Shown: positions 42,563 to 54,962 of the stretch, piece after piece
How positions within the stretch are numbered: the stretch's first letter is position 1
How the letters are laid out: each line of letters begins with the position of its first letter
NCBI RefSeq assembly: GCF_000010345.1
Contig: NC_009663.1
Location: 2,294,001-2,358,000 of the forward strand
Source: Sulfurovum sp. NBC37-1
GTDB taxonomy: Bacteria; Campylobacterota; Campylobacteria; Campylobacterales; Sulfurovaceae
DNA: 64,000 bases
Direction: 5' to 3'
The notes under the pieces: generated by a model
Seen by the model: the letters and a program-made list of their open reading frames with translations, nothing else
Told to the model about the DNA's origin: nothing
The model's database searches: none
Made by a program: the position numbers and the translations under genes

Positions 42563-44296
42563 TTATACCTTAAACCCCATACTCTTCGCTCCGTCGAAAC
42601 TGCTGCCAAGCTCTTTTTCTATCTCTTCGAGGAAGTCCCGGTTGGAAAAGACACTTTCTTCTCTGACGGCGACTTTGTAGGCAGTGTTTCGGATGACAAG
42701 GTTGATCTGTCCGCCGGTGAGTTCGTATTTTGCCAGTGCTTCGACATCGAAATCTTCCGCATAGTCCGCTTTTTCGGGGAGCATGAACTGCCAGAGTCTC
42801 AGGCGCTGTTTTTTACCGGGTTTTTTGAACTCTATCTTGTAGTTGAAGCGTCTCGAGAAAGCTTTATCGATATTCCCGAGAAGGTTCGTGGTCGCAATGA
42901 GGATACCTTCGAACTTCTCTATCTGCTCGAGGAAGATGTTCTGCATCTGGTTGTGCATCTTATCTGCCGAAGAGCCTGCCCCTTCGCTTCGGGAACTAAG
43001 GAACTGGTCGGCTTCGTTGAGCAGCAGTATGGGATCGACCTTTGCTTTTTTACTCAACTCCTTGAAGTCGTCGAAGATACGCCTGACATTCTTTTCACTC
43101 TCCCCCACATACATGGAAAGGATCTTCGAACAGTCAAAAGAGAGAATGGGACGTTTGAGGGTCTTTGCCAAACTCATCGCTGTCATCGTTTTCCCCGTAC
43201 CTGCTGCACCGTAGAAAATGATGCGCGCATCGATGCCTTTTCGCTTGTCTTTGATACCCCACTCTTTGAGTTTCTTGAAAACCTCTTTGTCAACCTGTTT
43301 GACAACATTGTTCAGAGTCTCTCTTGTTTTGGGGTGAAGCACGACATCATCGAGCGTCGTGGCAGGCTTGAGATATTCGAAAAGCTCCTGTTCCTGCACC
43401 AGCGCATCGAGCTTGAGTTTGGTGACCTTCTTTTTTTTCTTGGGATGAATGATCCGCTGCATCACTTCTTCCTGCAGATAGAAAGAACGGCTCACACCAC
43501 CGAACATATTGAGTATCTCTTCATAGTCGATGATATCTTCGGTAATGAGCTTTGCTCCATCTTCAAGCAGGGCACGGTTCTTGATCTTCTCGTATTCGTC
43601 GAAGGAGATCAGTTCTATAAGCGTGTTCATGTCTCTGAACTGTCCTTCTCCTCCGCTGTATTCCTCTTTCAGGAGGGCGAGGAAGATGCGCTGTTCCTTT
43701 TCATCGAGTCCTTTCTCCTTGAAGAACTCTTCCACCACGATAGGCGTTTCAGTAATCTTCACGCGTTCCTGTATACGTGTTGTCAAGAGTGTCAACTTGT
43801 TCTTCAATCGGCCGATGCTCAGGGAGTTATCCGCAAAGCCCTGTTTGAAGGTTGCGATCTTGTGCAGCAGGGCCACCATGTCGAACTGGTCCTGAAGATA
43901 CTCCAGATGGTCGGTGTAGGGCTTGATCTCGGGAAGATAGATCTCCAGAGAGCCCTCTTCGAGGAGACGCAGAAGGGAGATGCTCGGCGTTACGGAGGTG
44001 TTGAGTATCTCTATCTGTGATGTTTCATGCGCTTTGACCTGACCGAAACTCATCTGAATGAACCAGCCCAGATCGAGCAGATTCTTGACCAGTCCAAGTT
44101 GGTTCAGGTAGGCGTGGCCTTTGTCCGGAAAGTTGTCCTGCAGAAGTTCGAGCACAGGCACTTCTTCTATGCCTTTGACATAACGGCGGCAGACATACTG
44201 CACCAGTTCCGCCTCTGTTTTCGTACATTTCAAATGTGTATAGATCGAGGTTTTTTCTACCTCTTTTGCTTCAATAAAATCAATAAGATATTTCAA
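42563..44296 (-). CDS. AAA-family ATPase
   Basis: 577 residues. The N-terminal 330 are helical and of unknown fold. The C-terminal AAA module has Walker A FYGAAGTGKTMTA, pore-loop-like KILSMYVGESEKNV, Walker B PILLLNEADQFLSSR (Asn at the position usually Asp, as in some AAA subfamilies), sensor 1 GILIATTN and the arginine finger FSRRFNYKIEF. It resembles stand-alone cytosolic AAA ATPases seen in Campylobacterota. Substrate unknown. It lies just outside the REP-framed block and may be an old resident. Confidence 0.8.
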   Translation of the reverse strand: MKYLIDFIEAKEVEKTSIYTHLKCTKTEAELVQYVCRRYVKGIEEVPVLELLQDNFPDKGHAYLNQLGLVKNLLDLGWFIQMSFGQVKAHETSQIEILNTSVTPSISLLRLLEEGSLEIYLPEIKPYTDHLEYLQDQFDMVALLHKIATFKQGFADNSLSIGRLKNKLTLLTTRIQERVKITETPIVVEEFFKEKGLDEKEQRIFLALLKEEYSGGEGQFRDMNTLIELISFDEYEKIKNRALLEDGAKLITEDIIDYEEILNMFGGVSRSFYLQEEVMQRIIHPKKKKKVTKLKLDALVQEQELFEYLKPATTLDDVVLHPKTRETLNNVVKQVDKEVFKKLKEWGIKDKRKGIDARIIFYGAAGTGKTMTAMSLAKTLKRPILSFDCSKILSMYVGESEKNVRRIFDDFKELSKKAKVDPILLLNEADQFLSSRSEGAGSSADKMHNQMQNIFLEQIEKFEGILIATTNLLGNIDKAFSRRFNYKIEFKKPGKKQRLRLWQFMLPEKADYAEDFDVEALAKYELTGGQINLVIRNTAYKVAVREESVFSNRDFLEEIEKELGSSFDGAKSMGFKV

Positions 44297-44337
44297 TCAT
44301 TTTCCTATAGTTTTCTTTAAGTATAACAAATCTTTGA

Positions 44338-44343
44338 TATACT
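44338..44343 (+). promoter_or_regulatory. Probable -10 box for 44374 gene and PTS genes
   Basis: TATACT 31 bases before the start of the exported DUF1566-like gene, in the short gap divergent from the AAA ATPase. Confidence 0.45.
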
Positions 44344-44373
44344 CTTACTAATCAAGTTTTCAAAGGAAGAACC

Positions 44374-44787
44374 ATGTCAAGAATTCTAATGACCCTTTTG
44401 GCGCTCTCAGCCTTTGCCTCGGCAGAGATAACGATGATCAAAGACCCGAAGACCAACCTGATGTGGGAAGACACCCCGCATGTCAGAGAAACCAAGATCA
44501 CACAGCCCCGCGCAAAGGAGTATTGCAGCGAACTCCAACTGGGGGGATACAGTGACTGGCGACTTCCAACGATACACGAACTGCTTACGATCGTAGATTA
44601 TAACCGTGTTTCTCCGGCCATTCCCAAAGCATTCTCCTATATTGAAGATGAATCCTTTTACTGGACGAGTACCCGTGTGGCAGACGAGGACGATGCCTTC
44701 TGGGGCGTGAACTTCAAACGCGGTGCCAGCTCCAAAGCTTCTGAGTATTATGACCGCTATGTACGCTGTGTAAGGGATATTAAGTAA
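44374..44787 (+). CDS. Exported DUF1566/Lcl-like domain protein
   Basis: 137 residues with a signal peptide (MSRILMTLLALSAFASAE, cleavage after ASA) and one DUF1566 domain: DPKTNLMWEDTP, RAKEYCSELQLGGYSDWRLPTIHEL, FYWTSTRV and YVRCVRD. Two cysteines could form a disulfide. Such domains occur in secreted and surface proteins of many bacteria; the role is unknown. The stop lies three bases before the HPr-EI start, so it is cotranscribed with the PTS genes. Confidence 0.8.
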   Translation: MSRILMTLLALSAFASAEITMIKDPKTNLMWEDTPHVRETKITQPRAKEYCSELQLGGYSDWRLPTIHELLTIVDYNRVSPAIPKAFSYIEDESFYWTSTRVADEDDAFWGVNFKRGASSKASEYYDRYVRCVRDIK

Positions 44788-44790
44788 GCT

Positions 44791-46617
44791 ATGTCCCTTT
44801 TTGACAGGTTTTTTCCCAAAAGTCAGAGCAGTATACTGCACATTACCTCCCAAAACGGATTTCATCTCCGTCCTGCAGCACGTTTTGCGGCAGAAGCCAA
44901 AAAATTCAATGCTTCTATCGAAGCTGAAACACGGGGAAAAAGTGTCAATGCAAAACAGGTCAATGCCCTTCTTTCGCTCAACCTTGAACAGGGTGACCAT
45001 TTTGAATTGACCTGCAAGGGAAAAGATGCCAAAGAAGCCATCGAACAGCTCGAAGCATTCTTTCATATCTTGATGGAAGATGACAGAGAGAATGAAAGTA
45101 TAAAAAAAGAAGAGACCGCGTATGAAAGCCCTGTCATAGATGCAGAGATCATTTCAAGAGGTGTAGTCATCGCGCCTGCCTTCAGGTACAAGGAGGAGAC
45201 GGTCAAAAAAGAGTGTGATCTAAACTTTTCTGAAGCCCTTGCAAAAAGCCTTGAAGAGCTCGAAACACTTTTTGAAACACATAAAGCAAATGAAGATGCC
45301 GCCATCTATCTTGCGCAAAAAGAACTTTTAAGCGCCATTGCGAAAGATGTCGATTCCCTCGAAGAGTTCGAACTGACCATCGAAGAGGAGTCCGCCCGTC
45401 TGGTCGGGAGCAAAATGGCAGCAAAGATCACCGACTACAAAGATATCCTGCAGCGCATGCGGAAACAGATGGGCATAGAGACAGAAATGATCCTGCCTGA
45501 AACTCCCTCTATTCTTTTGGCTGAAGAACTTCTCCCCAGCCAGATAGAGCGGCTCAAAGAGAGTAACGCTGAAGGGGTGGTGCTCAAGGAGACGACACTG
45601 ACCTCCCATACGGCTATTCTGCTTCGGGGAAGCGGTATTCCCTCCCTCATTGCCGATTACAGTCCTCTTAAAGAGGGAAGCGGGATCATCATGGATGCCA
45701 ACAGCGGGCTCATCGTCATGGAGCCGACAACCAAAGATATTCAGAAAGCGAAAGAACGTCAAAAGGATGATCAGGCACAGAAAGATATTGCTTCACAGAA
45801 ACGTTTTGAAAAGGCATTAACACGTACCCAGAAACAGATCAGAGTCTTTGCCAATGTGATAGACGCCGTTTCTGCAAAAATTGCAAAAGAAGAAGGCGCC
45901 GAAGGAATCGGTCTGCTGCGTACCGAGTTTCTCTTCAAAGAGAAGCAGCCTACACTCGAAGAACAGGCCGATGCCTACAGGGAGATATTTGAACTCTTTG
46001 ACGAGATCACGGTACGTACCCTCGATGTGGGAGGGGACAAAAAACTGCCCTACCTTAGCCTTCCCCACGAAGAGAACCCTTTTCTTGGCATCAGGGGGAT
46101 CCGGCTTTACAAGACGCATCCGCAGCTGATGGAAGAACAGCTCCATGCGATCTTCCTTGCCGCCAACGGGCGCCCACTCAAAGTGATGTTTCCCATGGTC
46201 AGCACCGTCGAAGAGTTTATGGAAGCAAAAGAATTTGCTCTGCAGACAGCAAAGAAGCATAATATTGATGTTTCTGCCATACACTTTGGCATCATGGTCG
46301 AAGTCCCTTCCGTACTCTTCCTGATCAAAGAATTCAACAAAGTCGTAGATTTTTATTCCATCGGGAGCAATGACCTGACCCAGTATCTCTTCGCCATGGA
46401 GAGAACCCATCCCTCGCTCAAGGTGGACGAACACTCTCCCGTTGTCTATGATGCTATCAGGACCGTTGTCAAGCAGGCGGACAAGCCGGTCAGTATCTGC
46501 GGAGAGCTTGCCGCCGAGCCCGAAGCCATCGGAAAGCTGCTGAAGATCGGCATCGAGACACTGAGCGTATCACCAAAAAGCATTGCAGCGACCAAGGAGG
46601 AGATCAGACATGTTTAG
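44791..46617 (+). CDS. PTS HPr-Enzyme I fusion
   Basis: 608 residues joining two general PTS proteins. Residues about 15-95 are HPr with phospho-acceptor His25 in NGFHLRPAARF. The regulatory Ser46 of Gram-positive and enteric HPr is Gln here (NAKQVNALLSL). From about 110 comes Enzyme I: phospho-His in TLTSHTAILL, GIGLLRTEFLF, PEP-site LDVGGDKKLPYL, SNDLTQYLFA and active Cys in SICGELAA. Phosphate should pass PEP to EI to HPr to the EIIA encoded at 51817-52287, then to EIICB. The order is as in FruB/PtsA-type fusions but without an EIIA domain. It overlaps the next gene by eight bases. PTS genes are unusual in Campylobacterota. Confidence 0.9.
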   Translation: MSLFDRFFPKSQSSILHITSQNGFHLRPAARFAAEAKKFNASIEAETRGKSVNAKQVNALLSLNLEQGDHFELTCKGKDAKEAIEQLEAFFHILMEDDRENESIKKEETAYESPVIDAEIISRGVVIAPAFRYKEETVKKECDLNFSEALAKSLEELETLFETHKANEDAAIYLAQKELLSAIAKDVDSLEEFELTIEEESARLVGSKMAAKITDYKDILQRMRKQMGIETEMILPETPSILLAEELLPSQIERLKESNAEGVVLKETTLTSHTAILLRGSGIPSLIADYSPLKEGSGIIMDANSGLIVMEPTTKDIQKAKERQKDDQAQKDIASQKRFEKALTRTQKQIRVFANVIDAVSAKIAKEEGAEGIGLLRTEFLFKEKQPTLEEQADAYREIFELFDEITVRTLDVGGDKKLPYLSLPHEENPFLGIRGIRLYKTHPQLMEEQLHAIFLAANGRPLKVMFPMVSTVEEFMEAKEFALQTAKKHNIDVSAIHFGIMVEVPSVLFLIKEFNKVVDFYSIGSNDLTQYLFAMERTHPSLKVDEHSPVVYDAIRTVVKQADKPVSICGELAAEPEAIGKLLKIGIETLSVSPKSIAATKEEIRHV

Positions 46618-47992
46618 TCTTTTGCAAAAGATCGGTAAGGCGCTAATGACCCCTATCGCGGTACTGCCTGTTGCGGCACTGCTGCTTCGCCTGGGATTTG
46701 GCGATATTTTTGACGGGCAGGCAGCCCTTGTCATGAAGAGTGCCGGAGAGACGGTCTTTGCCAACCTCGATCTGCTATTCGGTATCGGTATCGCCTACGG
46801 CTTGGCAAAGAACAACGACGGCGCCGCCGCACTCTCGGGTGCCATCGGTGTACTCATCGCCAAAGCGGTTTACAGCAGTATTGACAGTAATGTCAACATG
46901 GGTGTCTTCGTGGGCATCATCATCGGTGTGATCGCAGGGGTGCTTTACAACCGATACCACGACATCAAGCTACCTGAATTCCTCGGCTTTTTCGGAGGAA
47001 AACGTTTCGTTCCCATCATTACATCCATTGCTGCGATAGCGGTGGGAGTGCTGGCTGGATACTTCTGGCCCTATGTACAAAATGCCATCGATGCTTTTTC
47101 GAACATGATCATAGGACTTCAGGAATTCGGTACATTCCTTTACGGAGTACTGAACCGTCTGCTCATCCCTCTGGGACTGCACCACATCCTCAACTCCGTC
47201 TTCTGGTTTCAGCTTGGGGACTTCACTTACATGAAGGATGGCGTGGAAGTGGTTGCCAACGGTGACCTACACCGCTTCTTTGCGGGAGATCCGTCTGCCG
47301 GGGTCTATATGTCAGGCTTCTATGTGGTCATGATGTTCGGCCTGCCAGCCCTGGCCTATGCGATCTACCTCAACACACCTAAAACGTACCGTGCCAAAGC
47401 CGCTGCTATTCTTGCCGGTGTAGCATTCACCTCATTTCTTACCGGTATCACCGAACCCCTGGAATTTCTTTTCCTCTTTGTCGCACCGCCACTTTTCCTC
47501 CTGCATGCCATACTCACCGGCCTGGCACTGGCAACGGCACAGCTTCTGAACATTCATGCCGGCTTCGGTTTTTCGGCAGGCTTCATCGACTATATAATTA
47601 ATTACAAACTGGGTAAAAACGTATGGATGATCCTGCCTTTGGGTACGGTCTTTGCCATCATTTACTTTACTGCAAGCTACTATCTGATCAGGACTATGAA
47701 ACTAAAGATACTCGAAACTGAACTCTCTGAAAGTGGTGAAACAGAGGGAAGTAGTACCTCAACGGAAGCGGAAGCATTCATTTCCGCCCTGGGAGGGAAA
47801 GAGAATATCCTGAATACGGACGCCTGCATCACACGTCTGCGCATGAGTGTGAATGACAGTTCCGATCTCAAAGATGAAGATTTTACAGTACTAGGAGCTA
47901 AAGGAGTGATCCGTCCGGACAAAAAATCCATACAGATCGTTCTGGGGACAAAAGCAGAGAAAATAGCTGAGGAGATAAGGGAATCACTGTAG
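46610..47992 (+). CDS. nagE: PTS transporter EIICB, N-acetylglucosamine type
   Basis: 460 residues from the ATG at 46610, which has AAGGAGG nine bases upstream; a longer frame to 46583 only overlaps the previous gene. The EIIC domain starts LLQKIGKALMTPIAVLPVAALLLRLG and has about ten membrane segments, including LGLHHILNSVFWFQ and FLTGITEPLEFLF. The EIIB domain (about 385-460) has the phospho-Cys in ILNTDACITRLRMSVND. No EIIA domain is fused. GlcNAc as substrate is inferred from sequence type and from nagA on the opposite strand; glucose or another amino sugar is possible. Confidence 0.85.
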   Translation: MFSLLQKIGKALMTPIAVLPVAALLLRLGFGDIFDGQAALVMKSAGETVFANLDLLFGIGIAYGLAKNNDGAAALSGAIGVLIAKAVYSSIDSNVNMGVFVGIIIGVIAGVLYNRYHDIKLPEFLGFFGGKRFVPIITSIAAIAVGVLAGYFWPYVQNAIDAFSNMIIGLQEFGTFLYGVLNRLLIPLGLHHILNSVFWFQLGDFTYMKDGVEVVANGDLHRFFAGDPSAGVYMSGFYVVMMFGLPALAYAIYLNTPKTYRAKAAAILAGVAFTSFLTGITEPLEFLFLFVAPPLFLLHAILTGLALATAQLLNIHAGFGFSAGFIDYIINYKLGKNVWMILPLGTVFAIIYFTASYYLIRTMKLKILETELSESGETEGSSTSTEAEAFISALGGKENILNTDACITRLRMSVNDSSDLKDEDFTVLGAKGVIRPDKKSIQIVLGTKAEKIAEEIRESL

Positions 47993-48032
47993 CCATAAAA
48001 TATGCCAAACTTTCCCTCTGCCTATATATAGG

Positions 48033-48064
48033 GTAATAATAAAGTAATTGTATTCTTTTATAAT
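48033..48064 (+). promoter_or_regulatory. GTAAT-repeat promoter 1
   Basis: Two direct GTAAT repeats 11 bases apart (48033-48037, 48044-48048), then ten bases, then TATAAT (48059-48064). The repeats sit where a -35 box would be, the usual layout of an OmpR/PhoB-family activated promoter. It drives the 37-codon ORF at 48116. Confidence 0.7.
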
Positions 48065-48115
48065 TCACAAGTTCAGAGAGTGAATTTTCTGACAAATTAT
48101 TATAAAGGATAAACT

Positions 48116-48229
48116 ATGCAAAACCTTATGACAAGTATCGCACTTATAGCGATACTGACACTCCCTTTCAGTATTCTATTTTCTGTAATCATATGGACAT
48201 TATCATCCGGACATTCCTGGCATAAATAA
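48116..48229 (+). CDS. 37-residue membrane protein
   Basis: ATG preceded by AAGGA seven bases upstream. The product is nearly all one hydrophobic helix (TSIALIAILTLPFSILFSVIIW) with a short polar end, SSGHSWHK. It follows GTAAT promoter 1 by about 50 bases. I know no family. Size and setting suggest a small membrane regulator or stress peptide; a coding role still needs proof. Confidence 0.55.
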   Translation: MQNLMTSIALIAILTLPFSILFSVIIWTLSSGHSWHK

Positions 48230-48253
48230 AATGTTCATAAGAATCTTACTGAG

Positions 48254-48285
48254 GTAATACTAAAGTAATAGTATTCACATATAAT
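48254..48285 (+). promoter_or_regulatory. GTAAT-repeat promoter 2
   Basis: GTAAT at 48254-48258 and 48265-48269, ten bases, TATAAT at 48280-48285. Same spacing as promoters 1 and 3. The flanking sequence also matches promoter 1 (AGTATTC against TGTATTC). No clear ORF follows. Confidence 0.7.
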
Positions 48286-48291
48286 TTTACT

Positions 48292-48400
48292 GTATCACAT
48301 AGTTGATACAGTTTTTCAAAAGGAGACATCAAGTACATATATCCCTTTTTTTACTTAGCCTAACTTTTTTGTTTTTAGCATCTTCGGCTTTCTGCCGAAG
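48292..48400 (+). ncRNA. Putative small RNA or orphan leader
   Basis: Region from the expected start of promoter 2 to the end of a seven-base hairpin (CTTCGGC / GCCGAAG). It contains a good ribosome site but only an ATA or ATC at usable distance, opening an 8- to 11-codon frame ending at 48363. It could be a small RNA, a leader, or a decayed small gene. Confidence 0.35.
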
Positions 48401-48506
48401 GTAAGTTTTATTTCACAGTTCATAACTTTCATTCCAATCAAAATATCCTTATATTATCATTACATCATCTCTTGGATCTACATTACATCAATTTAACACA
48501 GGAGAG

Positions 48507-48538
48507 GTAATAAAGAGGTAATTTTCTTTTTCTATACT
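48507..48538 (+). promoter_or_regulatory. GTAAT-repeat promoter 3
   Basis: GTAAT at 48507-48511 and 48518-48522, ten bases, TATACT at 48533-48538. It precedes the 67-codon exported protein gene by about 50 bases. Confidence 0.7.
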
Positions 48539-48589
48539 TCGTTCATCCGGATAGCAATTATCCGGTGTAATTTACCAAAAGGATAGCTC

Positions 48590-48793
48590 ATGAAAAAACT
48601 CCTCATGATAATCGCTGCCATAGCGATGACCAGTCTCTTTGTACAGGCAAACGAGACGACAAGCACAGAAGCAGCAAATGCCGATGCAACCAAGCAGGTA
48701 ACAGAAAGTGTATCTGCCCAACACGATACAGATACTGCTGCCACAGAGCAAGCAGAGAAAACAGTAGACGAAAAAACTACTGAAAAACATTAA
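48590..48793 (+). CDS. Small exported Ala/Thr/Glu-rich protein
   Basis: 67 residues: a clear signal peptide (MKKLLMIIAAIAMTSLFVQA, cleavage before NET) and a mature part of about 47 residues rich in Thr, Ala and Glu with no Cys (STEAANADATKQVTES). It looks disordered. AAAGGA precedes the ATG by seven bases. It is driven by GTAAT promoter 3 and closed by the hairpin at 48834. No family recognised. Confidence 0.65.
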   Translation: MKKLLMIIAAIAMTSLFVQANETTSTEAANADATKQVTESVSAQHDTDTAATEQAEKTVDEKTTEKH

Positions 48794-48833
48794 TATTCAA
48801 AATATAATGCCATAACTTCATAAACTCCTTCTT

Positions 48834-48853
48834 CTTCCGGCGTTTGCCGGAAG
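48834..48853 (+). terminator. Hairpin after small exported protein
   Basis: Perfect eight-base stem CTTCCGGC / GCCGGAAG with a GTTT loop. The T run is absent. Similar in form to the hairpin at 48382-48400. Confidence 0.5.
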
Positions 48854-48959
48854 TATCCAGTATACTCTTAATTATAATGTATTTTAATCATATTTATATT
48901 TTTATTGTATAATTAAAGCAATCAAAAAGGCAACAAAAAGAAAGAGAGTATTGTATCCT

Positions 48960-49925
48960 ATGTGGAAGATCTTGATATTTCTATTTTTATTTTTATTGAG
49001 CGGATGTTCTATAAACAGCCTTACTATGTGGGGCGAGTTGGACAAAGTTCATGTTGTCAAGTCTACACCTTATGTCAAACACTACAGAGCCTATTTTCAA
49101 AGAACAGACCTGCATACAATCCAAAAGAGTAAAAAATATCTCTTTTTTTACAATAAACACACAAAAGACCTGGCGATCCTTCTGCATCCGACATACAAAT
49201 ATGTACTGTACAGTTTTTCCCATCCCAACCTTGTTATCAAAATCAATTCTGATCGCAAACATGGGTACCGTCACATGCTGAAAATACTCAAACGTAAAGG
49301 ATACAGGGTAATTTCCCCCCATAGTGTAGGGTACACGACCCACATTGCTTTACGGCGTTATAAAAAAGTCAAAACTATTTTGGTTGAAGTAAAAGATTAT
49401 CAACATTTACAAAGTTTATACAAAAAAGCCATAAGAACCTACAATGCAAAAGGAATCAAACATATCCAAACAAGACTACCCAAGGTCCTGATAGATTCTT
49501 ATTATACGAAATATAAAGCGCAAGCTACTACATGGGAGCAATCAGAACAAGTGGAGATCATTGCATCGAAACTGCGTTTAAATGAACCTATCCCAGAAAA
49601 AGAAGAGATATCCCAGAAAAAAGAGGTAGAAGCCAAAATAACAACTGATATCGAAGAAAACAATACAGAACAGCTCTATACTTATTATTTAAAAAATGCC
49701 TCCTATTATGAATTGAACAATTTTCTCTCTTCTTCAGAGGCAAGAAGTACATTCAGTACTACGCAATACAACAATTTAAAAATCAGGAACCAGAGACTGG
49801 AAGAAAAAAACCTTTTGGAAAACGGATCACTCGAAGAGCTGATTACTACATACAAAAAAGACAAAAGTCCCATATACAAACAAAAGATTATGCAGCGCAT
49901 CAAAGAGATACAGCAAAACGAATAA
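48960..49925 (+). CDS. Lipoprotein of unknown function
   Basis: About 321 residues. A lipoprotein signal (ILIFLFLFLLSGC, lipobox LSGC) is followed by an unrecognised mature protein: a basic globular part to about residue 215, then charged helical sequence (EKEEISQKKEVEAKITTDIEEN) and a C-terminal helical part. I chose the ATG at 48960; a TTG at 48951 is only two bases from the GAGAG site. The gene is strongly AT-rich, like the two-component genes beyond it, and unlike the nuo operon, which suggests a different origin for this stretch. Confidence 0.7.
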   Translation: MWKILIFLFLFLLSGCSINSLTMWGELDKVHVVKSTPYVKHYRAYFQRTDLHTIQKSKKYLFFYNKHTKDLAILLHPTYKYVLYSFSHPNLVIKINSDRKHGYRHMLKILKRKGYRVISPHSVGYTTHIALRRYKKVKTILVEVKDYQHLQSLYKKAIRTYNAKGIKHIQTRLPKVLIDSYYTKYKAQATTWEQSEQVEIIASKLRLNEPIPEKEEISQKKEVEAKITTDIEENNTEQLYTYYLKNASYYELNNFLSSSEARSTFSTTQYNNLKIRNQRLEEKNLLENGSLEELITTYKKDKSPIYKQKIMQRIKEIQQNE

Positions 49926-49999
49926 AAGGGCTGTATGCCAAATATTCCGTAAAGTCTTAGATGAAATTCTTTCCTGATCTGTAGATGATTTTCTTTGAC

Positions 50000-51052
50000 C
50001 TATTCTCTTATCAATTTATCTAAATCCAATATAATTATGGTTCCCTGCCCTTCTTCACTTTTTACTTTTATGGATATATTCAGTTCATTACAAAGTTTTT
50101 TTACGATATGTAAACCGATACCGATGCCTCTGTCCTGTTCTTTATAATATCTTTCAAAAATTTTATAAGGATTTTTAATTCCTTTTCCTGTATCTTCAAT
50201 ATGGAGCATTGTATTCTCTACATAAACAAATACTCTCCCATCACGCTTGTTATATTTGCCGGCATTGCTCAGTAAATTATCAAGGATACGGGTCATGGCA
50301 TCTCTATTGGTCTGAAGCAGTGTTTTTTCCAGAGAAAGTTGATACACAATGTCGGGATAGAGAATTTTAAAATACTTTATGCGTTTTTCCAGCAGTTCTT
50401 TCAAATTAAATATTTCTGTCTGCACCGGAATTCCCTTCAGAAATATTTGTAAATTATTCTGTAGGGACAAAATGGTTTCTATATTGTTTTCAAGTCGTTC
50501 AATTTTACGATTTTCCCCTATCTCTTTTTTAAACAGTTTAAAATTAATACGCATGGAGCTAATAGGTGTATTGAAGTCATGCAGGATATCTTTCACAAAC
50601 TCTTCATTCATACGCAGTGCTTTGCGAAGAGGCATAAGTGCATATAATGAAAATAAAAAAGAGACAAAAAGTACAAAAAGTGAATAAAGAAAAAATTTGT
50701 TATAAATATTGTATTTAACTTTTGCAATACGTGATAGATATTGCTTCTTCGGATAAATAACCTGCATGAGATATTTTTCTACTGTCGGTATTTTGAAATA
50801 GCTGTAAAAGTCCCCATATTTGTTATAAAGTATATTTTCCTCTTTGTCCTTTTCTTTCTCCACGAAATCCGTTTGCAAACCATCACATTGAACCTTGTAG
50901 GCACAAAGCTTCATTTCGATTTGTATTTTTTCTTTTAATTCTGTTTTTTTATCCTGAAACTCATGCCAAAAATTAATGACAAGCAATACTTCCAAAAGAA
51001 TGAAAAAAATAAAAAAACTTTTGAGAAATGATTCTAGCTCATATGCTTTCAA
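50000..51052 (-). CDS. Sensor histidine kinase
   Basis: 350 residues with two membrane segments (about 10-27 and 115-137) enclosing a roughly 90-residue periplasmic sensor. The dimerisation box holds the phospho-His in KDILHDFNTPISSMRI. The ATPase domain shows the N box (ILDNLLSNAGKYN), the G1 box (IEDTGKGI) and a G2-like RGIGIGLHIVKKL. Overlaps the response regulator gene by 14 bases, so the two form an operon. The input signal is unknown; neighbours suggest envelope, phosphate or sugar status. Confidence 0.9.
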   Translation of the reverse strand: MKAYELESFLKSFFIFFILLEVLLVINFWHEFQDKKTELKEKIQIEMKLCAYKVQCDGLQTDFVEKEKDKEENILYNKYGDFYSYFKIPTVEKYLMQVIYPKKQYLSRIAKVKYNIYNKFFLYSLFVLFVSFLFSLYALMPLRKALRMNEEFVKDILHDFNTPISSMRINFKLFKKEIGENRKIERLENNIETILSLQNNLQIFLKGIPVQTEIFNLKELLEKRIKYFKILYPDIVYQLSLEKTLLQTNRDAMTRILDNLLSNAGKYNKRDGRVFVYVENTMLHIEDTGKGIKNPYKIFERYYKEQDRGIGIGLHIVKKLCNELNISIKVKSEEGQGTIIILDLDKLIRE

Positions 51053-51674
51053 TCATATACCCTTGGCCTCTGATATTGCGTATATTTATATCCAGCTTGT
51101 TTTTCAGTTTGGCGATATTCACCCTCAATGCATTTGCATTGGGCTGTTCCAAAAAATCCATCAGTATAAAACTGTCGACTACTTTATCCTGTTGGGTGAT
51201 CAAAGCATGAAAGATATTGAGCTGCACCTCACCGAGACTAATGAGTTCAGAAGCTTTTTTTACCGTTTTACTGGCGAGATCATAGGATATCTCATCATAA
51301 TGTATTGCCATATCTTTTTGATTGTATTTACTTTTGATACGTACAATAAGTTCTTCAGGATCAAAAGGTTTTTTAATATAGTCTTCCGCTCCAATCTCAA
51401 ATCCTTTTGAAATTGAATTAATATCGGTCAAAGCGGTAATATAGATCGCAGGGGTTTCATCACCTGCTTCTTTTAAAGAGGAAAGTACATCAAACCCATC
51501 AATATCGGGTACATTGACATCCAAAATATACAAATCATAGTTTTTTTCAAATGTTAGATCAAATACCTCCGGCCCCCTATGGGCGGTATCAACACTGTAT
51601 CCTTCAAGCTCCAAAAAATCTTTTAATGAGGCACACAGTATTTTGTCATCTTCCAATAATAATATTTTCATCAT
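51039..51674 (-). CDS. OmpR-family response regulator
   Basis: 211 residues. The receiver has the acidic pair in LLLEDD, the phospho-Asp in LYILDVNVPD, Thr in YITALTD and Lys in DYIKKPFDPEE. The C-terminal winged helix ends NIRNIRGQGYMIE, the usual OmpR/PhoB wing. This family binds tandem direct repeats of 11-base period, the spacing of the three GTAAT promoters about 3 kb away. That link is inference. Confidence 0.92.
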   Translation of the reverse strand: MMKILLLEDDKILCASLKDFLELEGYSVDTAHRGPEVFDLTFEKNYDLYILDVNVPDIDGFDVLSSLKEAGDETPAIYITALTDINSISKGFEIGAEDYIKKPFDPEELIVRIKSKYNQKDMAIHYDEISYDLASKTVKKASELISLGEVQLNIFHALITQQDKVVDSFILMDFLEQPNANALRVNIAKLKNKLDINIRNIRGQGYMIESI

Positions 51675-51718
51675 TATTAAGTATATACAACAAGTATTAA
51701 CATAATATTAGTTCACTA

Positions 51719-51817
51719 CTATTTCTTTTTCTTCGGGCTTTTCAATACAATAAAAAAAACGACAAGAATTACGGCATAAACAATATAGCTGATAACCTCA
51801 TTATTATTTTGCGGCAT
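51719..51817 (-). CDS. 32-residue membrane protein coupled to EIIA
   Basis: Short frame whose ATG overlaps the EIIA stop codon (TAATG), with GGAAG seven bases upstream. The product has a polar start (MPQNNNEV), one hydrophobic helix (ISYIVYAVILVVFFIVL) and a basic end (KSPKKKK), a tidy single-pass topology. It may assist or regulate the PTS permease, though nothing in the sequence proves this. Confidence 0.6.
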   Translation of the reverse strand: MPQNNNEVISYIVYAVILVVFFIVLKSPKKKK

Positions 51818-52287
51818 TATATCACTTCCATAATGGCATCACCGGTGATGACCACATTGGTATTTTTGTCAATAGCCTCATACTTGCTCTCATCTGTGAT
51901 CAGAATAGGAGTTACGATATCTTTGGCATGCGCTTTGATGTAATTGAGATCTGCTTTAATAATGGGGTCTCCCGCTTTGACCTCATCTCCCTCCTGTGCC
52001 AGGCGTTCAAAGCCTTCTCCCTTGAGGGCTACCGTCTCCAAACCTATATGCACCATCACTTCCAGGTCCTGATCACTCTTGACAGAATAGGCATGGTTGG
52101 TTGAAAATATTTTTGTGACCACTCCGTCAATGGGTGCGGTAAAGACTTCTCCGACAGGGAGAATGGCAAGACCATCTCCTGCCATCCTCTGTGAAAACAC
52201 TTCATCATCAACACTTTCCAGCGTCAACAGCTGTCCATCTACAGGGGAAAACACATCTCTTCTTTTGCGTTTAAAAAAACCGAACAT
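51817..52287 (-). CDS. crr: PTS EIIA, glucose/GlcNAc (Crr) type
   Basis: 156 residues, a free-standing EIIA. FSPVDGQLLTLESV opens the domain; the two active-site His lie in STNHAYSV and VMVHIGLETVALKGEGF. It should accept phosphate from HPr and pass it to the Cys of NagE, completing the chain split between the two strands. It lies two bases after nagA. Confidence 0.9.
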   Translation of the reverse strand: MFGFFKRKRRDVFSPVDGQLLTLESVDDEVFSQRMAGDGLAILPVGEVFTAPIDGVVTKIFSTNHAYSVKSDQDLEVMVHIGLETVALKGEGFERLAQEGDEVKAGDPIIKADLNYIKAHAKDIVTPILITDESKYEAIDKNTNVVITGDAIMEVI

Positions 52288-52289
52288 AC

Positions 52290-53414
52290 TTATCCTTTAT
52301 ATTTCACTTCACCGTTTACGATTGTTGTTATGATACTGAAATCTTCATCAAAGATGACCATATCTGCATCATAACCGCTTTTGAGTTCGCCTTTTTTCAG
52401 ACCAAGTTTCTCTCCCGGGACCTTTGTTACGGCATTGACCGCTTCGATCAGTGTCATCCCTGCTGCCTCAGTCATATGTTTTAAGGCATCATTCATCTTC
52501 AGAACCGAACCCGCAAGCGTACCGTCATCCAACGTGGCCTTTCCCTCTTCCACTGTTACCCTTCTCCCGCCAAGGTCGTAAATACCGTTTTTCATACAAC
52601 CTGCACGCATGGCATCAGTAATCAGTATCAGCCGCTCACCTTTGACCCGGTGTACAAGTTTTAGTACAGAAGGGTGGGTATGCACCAGGTCTGCAATGAT
52701 ATCGCAGCTGATATCCGAGTCGAACACGGCACCCACGATGCCCGGCTTTCTATGGTGGTAAGGGTTCATCGCATTAAACAGATGCGTGGCATGGGAGATC
52801 CCCCAGTCAAAACTCTCTTTGCTCTGCTCAAAAGTGGCTTCACTGTGTCCGATACTCAATACTATATGAGGGTAGTGTTTCGAGAGATACTTGATGAATG
52901 ATTCCGCTTCCGGCATCTCCGGGGCAATAGTGATCATCCTGATCTGATCCAGATAGGGCTCAATGAGTTCAATGCTGGGTTCACGGATATACTGTCTGTC
53001 CTGTGCACCATGTTTTTCAGGGTTGAGAAAAGGCCCTTCAAGATGTATTCCAAGTATCTTCGCTCCCTCCATTGTTTCAGCATGCTCTTTAACATTTCGT
53101 AAAGCCTTGTCAATAGCTTTCTCGGACATGGTCATCGTAGTCGCCAGGAAAGATGTGGTACCTGTACGAAGCAGGATCGAAGAAATGGTCTGCAGCGCTT
53201 CAGGTGTGGAGTCCATCACATCCGCACCGCCTGAGCCGTGTATGTGAATGTCAATAAAACCGGGGCTGACATACGCTCCCCCAGCATCGATGATCTCGAC
53301 ACATTCTGCCGGGGTCTCATCGGAGAGAGATATGATCTTATCGTCAAAGAGCAACTGTTTTCCCTCCACGATCCGATCATCTACAATGAGTTTTGCATTG
53401 ATAATGGTTTTCAT
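52290..53414 (-). CDS. nagA: N-acetylglucosamine-6-phosphate deacetylase
   Basis: 374-residue amidohydrolase that removes acetate from GlcNAc-6-phosphate, the product of PTS uptake. GFIDIHIHGSGGADVMD is the N-terminal metal site, ILGIHLEGPFLNPEKHGAQ the Glu-containing segment, SIGHSEA and THLFNAM the His ligands, and ILITDAMRAGC the catalytic Asp. nagB is not in the window. It supports an amino sugar as the PTS substrate. Confidence 0.94.
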   Translation of the reverse strand: MKTIINAKLIVDDRIVEGKQLLFDDKIISLSDETPAECVEIIDAGGAYVSPGFIDIHIHGSGGADVMDSTPEALQTISSILLRTGTTSFLATTMTMSEKAIDKALRNVKEHAETMEGAKILGIHLEGPFLNPEKHGAQDRQYIREPSIELIEPYLDQIRMITIAPEMPEAESFIKYLSKHYPHIVLSIGHSEATFEQSKESFDWGISHATHLFNAMNPYHHRKPGIVGAVFDSDISCDIIADLVHTHPSVLKLVHRVKGERLILITDAMRAGCMKNGIYDLGGRRVTVEEGKATLDDGTLAGSVLKMNDALKHMTEAAGMTLIEAVNAVTKVPGEKLGLKKGELKSGYDADMVIFDEDFSIITTIVNGEVKYKG

Positions 53415-53417
53415 TGA

Positions 53418-54962
53418 TTACATCTCATCTCTGAGCTTGTCCTTCAAAACACGTTTCAGTACTTTACCCGTTGCATTCTTGGGCAGTTCATCGATCACAT
53501 GGATCTGCTTGGGAAGTTTAAAGTTTGCCAGATTTTCCCGCATATGCTTTTTCAAAGAAGCCTCATCACAAGACTCGACATCTTCTTCAAGCTCAAGATA
53601 GGCTACCGGTATCTCACCGCTTTTTTCGTCTCTCACACCGATAACAGCTGAAGCTGCGACACCTTCAAAAGCGTCTATGACCTCTTCGATCTCTCTTGGG
53701 TAGATATTGATACCTTTAGATATGATAAGGTCTTTTTTCCTGTCCACGAGGAAAAGGAACCCCTCATCATCGAGATAACCCATATCGCCTGTCAACAGCC
53801 AGCCGTTGACAATAGTCTCCCTTGTCGCTTCGGGGCGGTTTAGATAGCCCTGCATGACATGGTCTCCCCTGACGATGATATCGCCTATCTCCCCAGTAGG
53901 AAGTTCATTCATATCTTCATCTACGATCTTGATCTCGTAGTCATGGGCTGCTGTACCTACAGAACCTGCCTTCTGTTTCTCAAAAGTGTTGACACAGACG
54001 ACAGGACTCGCTTCGCTCAGCCCGTACCCTTCGAGCAGCTTGGCACGTTTGAACTTTTTTGCCATGGCATTGAGCGTTTTGGGCTGCAAAGGGGCCGCTC
54101 CGGAGATGAATGCCCGGATATTATTGAACCAGATGAAGTACCAGGGAAGTTTCGCTTTGGCAAGTGCATTATATACGGAAGGAATTCCGAAAAAAAGTGT
54201 TACCCGTTTTGTCAATGTTTGCTTGAAAATGTTACTAAACGGTTGAAGCGATTTGATGATCACAATACTTCCTCCTGCATACAGGGGAAGGATCACACCG
54301 ACCGTAAAGGTAAAGGCATGGAACATCGGTAAAAAGACGATTATCCTATCTTTGGGTGTCACCTTGATAAGTTTTCTGGCAAACTCAATATTTGACAGGA
54401 GATTTTTGTTGCTGAGCATCGCCCCTTTGGGCTTGCCTGTCGTACCGGAAGTGTAGATAAGGACAGCCGTATCGTCCAACTTTCTGGCGATATGCCTTGT
54501 GCTATCTGTTGTGGACAGCGCTTCCGAAAAAGTGAAATTTCTCTCATCTTTTCTGGGGCTTTCGCCTTCCCAGAGAATAAACCGGCACTGTACCGGTCCG
54601 TTGGACCTGTTGACAACACTCTCATGCACCGTAGACGCCACAAGCACCGTACTCTCACTGTCCTTGAGGATATAGCTGAGTTCATCCTCCTTGAGGAAGG
54701 TGTTGACAGGTACTACGATGGCACCTATTTTGGAAATGGCAAATACAGTATAGATGAATTCCGGCGAGTTGCGCAGAAAAAGTGCAACCTTGTCCCCCTC
54801 CTCAATACCTTTGTCGGCAAAAAAGGCGGCAAGTTTGTCTACGTTCTCCAGCACTTCCCCATAGGTGATCTTCTCATCACCGTCAAAAAGCGCGACTTTT
54901 CGTTTACGCTTTTGTACCTGGGCCGAGAGGAATTCATAGAAATTACTGTATGCGTAGTCCAT
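53418..54962 (-). CDS. fadD: Long-chain fatty acid-CoA ligase
   Basis: 514-residue AMP-forming acyl-CoA synthetase. The AMP-binding P-loop is LIYTSGTTGKPKGAMLS, then EGYGLSEASPVV, GWLLTGDMGYLDDEGFL and the hinge DRKKDLIISKGINIYPREIEE; the C-terminal Lys lies in PKNATGKVLKRVL. Stop and neighbouring starts are two to three bases from nagA and fadL, so it belongs to one long unit with them. Substrate assignment as long-chain fatty acid relies on fadL beside it. Confidence 0.85.
   Translation of the reverse strand: MDYAYSNFYEFLSAQVQKRKRKVALFDGDEKITYGEVLENVDKLAAFFADKGIEEGDKVALFLRNSPEFIYTVFAISKIGAIVVPVNTFLKEDELSYILKDSESTVLVASTVHESVVNRSNGPVQCRFILWEGESPRKDERNFTFSEALSTTDSTRHIARKLDDTAVLIYTSGTTGKPKGAMLSNKNLLSNIEFARKLIKVTPKDRIIVFLPMFHAFTFTVGVILPLYAGGSIVIIKSLQPFSNIFKQTLTKRVTLFFGIPSVYNALAKAKLPWYFIWFNNIRAFISGAAPLQPKTLNAMAKKFKRAKLLEGYGLSEASPVVCVNTFEKQKAGSVGTAAHDYEIKIVDEDMNELPTGEIGDIIVRGDHVMQGYLNRPEATRETIVNGWLLTGDMGYLDDEGFLFLVDRKKDLIISKGINIYPREIEEVIDAFEGVAASAVIGVRDEKSGEIPVAYLELEEDVESCDEASLKKHMRENLANFKLPKQIHVIDELPKNATGKVLKRVLKDKLRDEM

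Follow-up and report, generated by a model that had tools for sequence, protein, structure and literature searches.

Gene content of the locus

Within the window, i.e. the whole 64-kb stretch of Sulfurovum sp. NBC37-1 DNA that was analysed, three promoter-like sites of one layout, GTAAT-N6-GTAAT-N10-TATAMT, lie on the + strand inside 510 bp. Site 1 (48033-48064; half-sites 48033-48037 and 48044-48048, -10 box TATAAT at 48059-48064) precedes a gene for a 37-aa membrane miniprotein (48116-48229, +; MQNLMTSIALIAILTLPFSILFSVIIWTLSSGHSWHK), with AAAGGA just before its ATG. Site 2 (48254-48285; half-sites 48254-48258 and 48265-48269, -10 box TATAAT at 48280-48285) precedes a putative small RNA of ~125 nt (48287-48412, +), and site 3 (48507-48538; half-sites 48507-48511 and 48518-48522, -10 box TATACT at 48533-48538) precedes the gene of a 67-aa exported acidic protein (48590-48793, +; MKKLLMIIAAIAMTSLFVQANET...), which has AAAGGA as its ribosome-binding site. 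A sequence-only reading of this DNA had described the 37- and 67-codon ORFs and a histidine kinase/OmpR-type pair nearby, and all of these are present.

The kinase gene (50000-51052, -; Pfam HATPase_c and, weakly, HisKA) and the response regulator gene (51039-51674, -) lie 1.5-3.6 kb from the three sites. The regulator, our proposed binder of the sites, appears to be of the OmpR/PhoB type: its receiver domain is clear in Pfam (Response_reg, 95.5 bits), Trans_reg_C scores 23.5 bits, slightly below the cut-off of 26.2, and the protein aligns with PhoB over its length at 27% identity. Its recognition helix, NALRVNIAKLKNKL, is conserved across the regulator family. Convergent with the kinase gene is that of a 321-aa lipoprotein (48960-49925, +), with no motif directly upstream here. 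This lipoprotein is conserved beside the kinase in ~30 loci; its AlphaFold2 model has a pLDDT of 88, and a Foldseek search of the model against the PDB gave nothing better than E = 0.1. A 32-aa single-TM ORF (51719-51817, -; C-terminal KSPKKKK) is found between the EIIA and regulator genes, and most relative loci have a homolog in this position.

Across the ~30 loci the gene order is AAA ATPase, PtsH-PtsI, GlcNAc EIIBC, variable small genes, lipoprotein, kinase, regulator, 32-aa membrane ORF, EIIA, NagA and acyl-CoA ligase, the names being those assigned by our own reading of the sequences. This conserved GlcNAc-PTS/NagA order suggests that the locus is tied to amino-sugar or cell-wall metabolism.

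The three sites share an exact promoter layout

In each of the three sites the second GTAAT starts 11 bases after the first, and exactly 10 bases separate it from the -10 box. An exact pattern scan of the whole window found zero-mismatch copies at 48033, 48254 and 48507 (+) only, in agreement with the identical layout noted in the sequence-only reading. Shuffled sequence never gave an exact match (20,000 dinucleotide shuffles for the 610-bp region, 200 shuffles for the whole window). The whole genome (a single contig of 2,562,277 bases) contains four exact matches, the three window sites and a fourth at C1:1413822, and 150 related genomes contain 61, compared with none for the reversed control pattern in the same 150 genomes. 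A scan of this kind was what the sequence-only reading had put forward as its check. When both gaps were left free in 100 relatives, the N6/N10 spacing was still the dominant one (exactly kept in 41 of 68 matches).

PhoB binds tandem head-to-tail 11-bp direct repeats (PMC4415409). In PhoB/pho-box promoters of E. coli and of the genome's own Pho system, the second repeat replaces the -35 box, ten bases before the -10 box; the window sites likewise have direct repeats spaced 11 bp, the second at the -35 position 10 nt before the -10 box. This likeness, together with the N6/N10 spacing in the relatives, argues for a PhoB/OmpR-type promoter, as had been claimed.

Two types of site in one genome

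With the half-site relaxed to GTWAY, nearly all good sites of the genome fall in two clusters, that of the window trio and a Pho cluster ~36 kb from it. In the latter, sites with the identical N6/N10 layout precede pstC, pstS, a PhoB-like regulator gene (best NCBIfam match TIGR02154 PhoB, below its cut-off), a PiT transporter gene and porin-like genes. Since the genome's own Pho cluster uses the same arrangement, the layout of the window sites is that of a pho box. The trio could then be ordinary pho boxes of the PhoB-like regulator 36 kb off, with the tiny genes as part of the phosphate-starvation regulon, a reading to which both the common layout and the common GTAAT/GTWAY half-site lend weight.

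The bases beside GTAAT point the other way. Exact sites across the relatives divide by the base preceding the second GTAAT, 48 having A or G (consensus GTAATAyTnARGTAATRsTcTT) and 12 having T (consensus GTAATCATTTTGTAAT). The T type is the phosphate type: its sites precede pstS, porin-like genes and once a small ORF, and the first GTAAT of pho sites is mostly followed by CA. Sites 1, 2 and 3 of the window have A, A and G before the second GTAAT and A after the first, hence all belong to the A/G type, and no phosphate genes follow them. Moreover, the recognition helix of the window regulator differs from that of PhoB. The plain pho-box reading was dropped as the main one once the A/G and T sub-types had been separated.

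A pho-type promoter also stands before a small basic ORF, MKISNTLKKIIKKDGSHSLSSRTVNKLKSSKEFSYLVDIKRA, outside the window (L011:2064-2192, i.e. C1:2384064-2384192). A homolog in another genome (L016) is likewise behind a pho-type box, and the ORF looks like a conserved phosphate-regulated miniprotein.

The A/G-type sites follow the kinase and sit at the regulator and kinase genes

Orthologs of the window kinase (55-77% identity) are present in 37 of 78 genomes of the genus, its own genome counted. An A/G-type site was found in 23 of these 37 and in 2 of the 41 kinase-negative genomes (p = 3e-8, Fisher, a value that overstates independence as the 78 genomes are related to each other). Note that the matches in G046, G067 and G068 come from another conserved promoter, that of an 80-aa protein; without them the counts are 21/37 and 1/41 (p = 6e-8). 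The exact A/G site is absent in 14 of the 37 kinase-positive genomes. The phosphate type, in contrast, is unlinked to the kinase (2/37 with and 4/41 without). Given this difference, and the fixed placement of A/G-type sites at the genes of the window pair's own family described below, we consider it improbable that the trio are pho boxes. The promoters may well work like PhoB-type ones, yet by the comparisons made they are not members of the Pho regulon; some cross-talk with the phosphate regulator is possible.

A third conserved promoter, GTAATCCTTTCGTAATACTCTATG-TATAAT with N9 or N10, occurs in L025, L038 and L040, where it precedes an 80-aa protein, MSxKEAKTLDERIDRIYKMAKEHYGEVRF; free-gap matches to it are found in G005, G008, G013, G027, G052 and G060.

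In 19 of 40 relative loci the regulator gene has a matching site no more than 40 bp in front of it, and in further loci TAAT-N7-TAAT stands there ahead of TATACT. The corresponding promoter in the window (51680-51711, -; CTAATATTATGTTAATACTTGTTGTATATACT), conserved upstream of the regulator in relatives, is degenerate in our genome, with two mismatches and TTAAT as its second half. The regulator system is probably self-regulating, to judge from this placement. The -10 box of the regulator gene is only a few bases from its ATG (window 51674-51685), as it is in relatives, so that the regulator message probably has almost no leader.

In distant relatives a site is found ~10 bp or less from the kinase stop codon, followed by a gene for a small exported protein. 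These kinase-end loci (553 kb) contain 14 sites with at most one mismatch and none for the reversed controls. We built one matrix from the kinase-end sites and one from the regulator promoters, both from relatives only, and scored 127,938 window positions. The first ranks site 2, site 3, site 1 and the regulator promoter at 1 to 4, and gives phosphate boxes 6-17 compared with 20-28 for A/G-type sites; the second ranks the window's regulator promoter first, then site 3 and site 2. As the sites had been picked for their likeness to the pattern, these scores are partly circular, which the fixed position is not.

Co-occurrence with the kinase and placement at the regulator and kinase genes are thus the basis on which we infer that an OmpR/PhoB-type winged-helix regulator binds the sites. 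They favor the nearby regulator, already suspected from its proximity, as the binder, and we regard it as likely that the adjacent two-component system uses the three sites as activator-dependent promoters. It is very improbable that another regulator of the PhoB/OmpR family, such as that of the paralogous pair at C1:797272-798925, controls them: the paralogous regulator is of the same family and 44% identical, but it has a different recognition helix (NALRFHISNINK) and no A/G-type site near it, and the association is with orthologs of the window's own kinase. The paralogous pair (L222) adjoins genes for a Cys-rich exported protein, a cytochrome c, a PepSY-like protein and a permease, and is perhaps a metal response.

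The predicted targets are mostly miniature envelope proteins

Taking the 19 distinct exact A/G sites downstream of which lies an ORF with its own ribosome-binding site, and scoring N-termini as signal-like by a simple hydropathy rule, we found 16 of 19 targets with a signal-like N-terminus, versus 148 of 375 background ORFs (39%); the 37-aa membrane protein is a 17th. Many of the A/G-site targets are 58-126 aa long. Others are lipoproteins, and one, behind a one-mismatch site, is a 461-aa exported protein with a peptidoglycan-binding domain. In the distant relatives the targets are periplasmic proteins of 95-185 aa.

At least eight other genomes (L019, L027, L033, L037, L039, L094, L095 and L102) have homologs of the 67-aa protein, 58-73 aa long, downstream of a promoter of this type. 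The 37-aa protein has a homolog of 32 aa, 61% identical, behind a two-mismatch copy of the promoter (L099:5892-5987). This L099 locus, from a second species, holds the full trio beside the same pair, i.e. a 67-aa exported protein, the 32-aa membrane homolog and the site-2 RNA. Searches of the tiny proteins against Pfam and NCBIfam returned sub-threshold matches only. The suggestion of a local regulon of miniature envelope genes gains support from the recurrence of the trio and from targets that are mostly small and exported, membrane or lipid-anchored, as predicted from their sequences.

The leader of the 67-aa gene contains a stem-loop (48546-48565, +; core CCGGATA-gcaat-TATCCGG). The leaders in L019, L024, L027, L037, L094, L095 and L102 also have stem-loops, often GTTCGGATA...TATCCGAAC, immediately downstream of the start point. 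The sequences vary and the pairing is kept among these small exported genes, an observation that is suggestive only.

A candidate small RNA behind site 2

Downstream of promoter 2 there is a ribosome-binding-like AAGGAG with no start codon and no obvious ORF. The putative RNA consists of a 5' stem-loop (48289-48312), a single-stranded AAAAGGAG and a terminator-like stem-loop (48380-48402). The region is conserved at L099:6058-6184, where both stems are kept, the terminator-like one with one compensatory change, and where a start codon is again missing; a 33-aa TTG frame of the window is not kept. A covariance model of the RNA found just two copies among the 78 genus genomes. A blastn search in the genus gave noise only, missing the G015 copy contained in the covariance model. 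Rfam covariance models run over window positions 44000-54000, up to E = 1, gave no match to the site-2 RNA, and duplex predictions between it and neighbouring messages were not discriminating. The features of a regulatory small RNA, namely an own promoter, a terminator-like stem, a conserved structure and no conserved ORF, are thus assembled here, in two genomes only, and a small RNA is the simplest reading of the predicted site-2 transcript.

It has also to be considered that the likeness of the sites is the trace of a local duplication, sites 1 and 2 having been copied recently, with constitutive promoters and a decayed gene behind site 2. Sites 1 and 2 do have TAAAGTAAT-GTATTC in common outside the motif, and site 2 has a ribosome-binding site that lacks a start codon. 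However, the conservation of the site-2 region in L099, with both stem-loops and without a start codon, is at odds with decay, site 3 and the sites of the relatives have the motif alone in common, the remaining sequence being different, and the exact N6/N10 spacing dominates. We judge this explanation slightly less probable still than the pho-box one.

Proposed mechanism and comparison with known systems

Our best reading of these sequences is an uncharacterised OmpR/PhoB-family system, housed in a conserved GlcNAc-PTS locus, that would activate miniature envelope genes and a small RNA. The kinase would sense a presumably envelope-related signal and phosphorylate the regulator. By analogy with PhoB, two regulator subunits would sit head to tail on the two 11-bp half-sites, consensus (G)GTAATACTnA, and the second half-site, in place of a -35 box and 10 bases from TATAMT, would serve to recruit RNA polymerase, with activation rather than repression as the presumed direction of control. 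The outputs at this locus would be the 37-aa inner-membrane protein, the ~125 nt small RNA and the 67-aa exported acidic protein, and the regulator gene itself would probably come under feedback. Elsewhere in the family, sites of this kind would drive other small exported or lipid-anchored proteins. More tentatively, and with a good deal of doubt, a dedicated two-component system in the GlcNAc-PTS/NagA locus would switch on almost purely miniature products (a membrane miniprotein, a secreted acidic miniprotein and a small RNA) under the same signal. Free-living Campylobacterota would then have an envelope response that senses amino sugars or the cell wall and that differs from the ones described for Campylobacter and Helicobacter.

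Compared with PhoB/pho-box promoters, the window sites have A/G instead of T before GTAAT, and they would have another cognate regulator and small envelope rather than phosphate genes as targets. PhosSR of Campylobacter jejuni has a direct-repeat box. It is a two-component phosphate system of the phylum (PMC9449129) and, as a phosphate regulon, it matches the separate pho-type sites of our genome, unlike the window system. Similar in target type is DccRS of C. jejuni, also an OmpR-type pair of this phylum, which activates a small number of genes whose products are putatively periplasmic or membrane proteins (reviewed in PMC9449129); the window system differs in its GlcNAc-PTS locus and in the predicted RNA among its outputs. 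In distant relatives (L105, L107-L111) the kinase gene is followed immediately by one for a small periplasmic protein, an arrangement that might be likened to the CpxRA/CpxP type of envelope stress response, but these small proteins differ from CpxP-like ones in having no Pfam match above cut-off to a known family.

For an unstudied two-component family of Sulfurovum and its relatives, a DNA target can hereby be predicted, along with a regulon that is open to testing. A single regulator would be tied to a candidate small RNA and to short conserved ORFs that annotation easily misses. The cell would also have two regulators using almost identical promoter layouts that differ by the bases beside GTAAT, which makes for a clean example of how specificity and cross-talk work among PhoB/OmpR-type regulators. 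A pair of this type in a different family of the order (L216 and L217) lies near another repeat-like promoter, with TTTAC/TTAAC half-sites, and a small exported protein, which suggests a drifting motif within a constant architecture.
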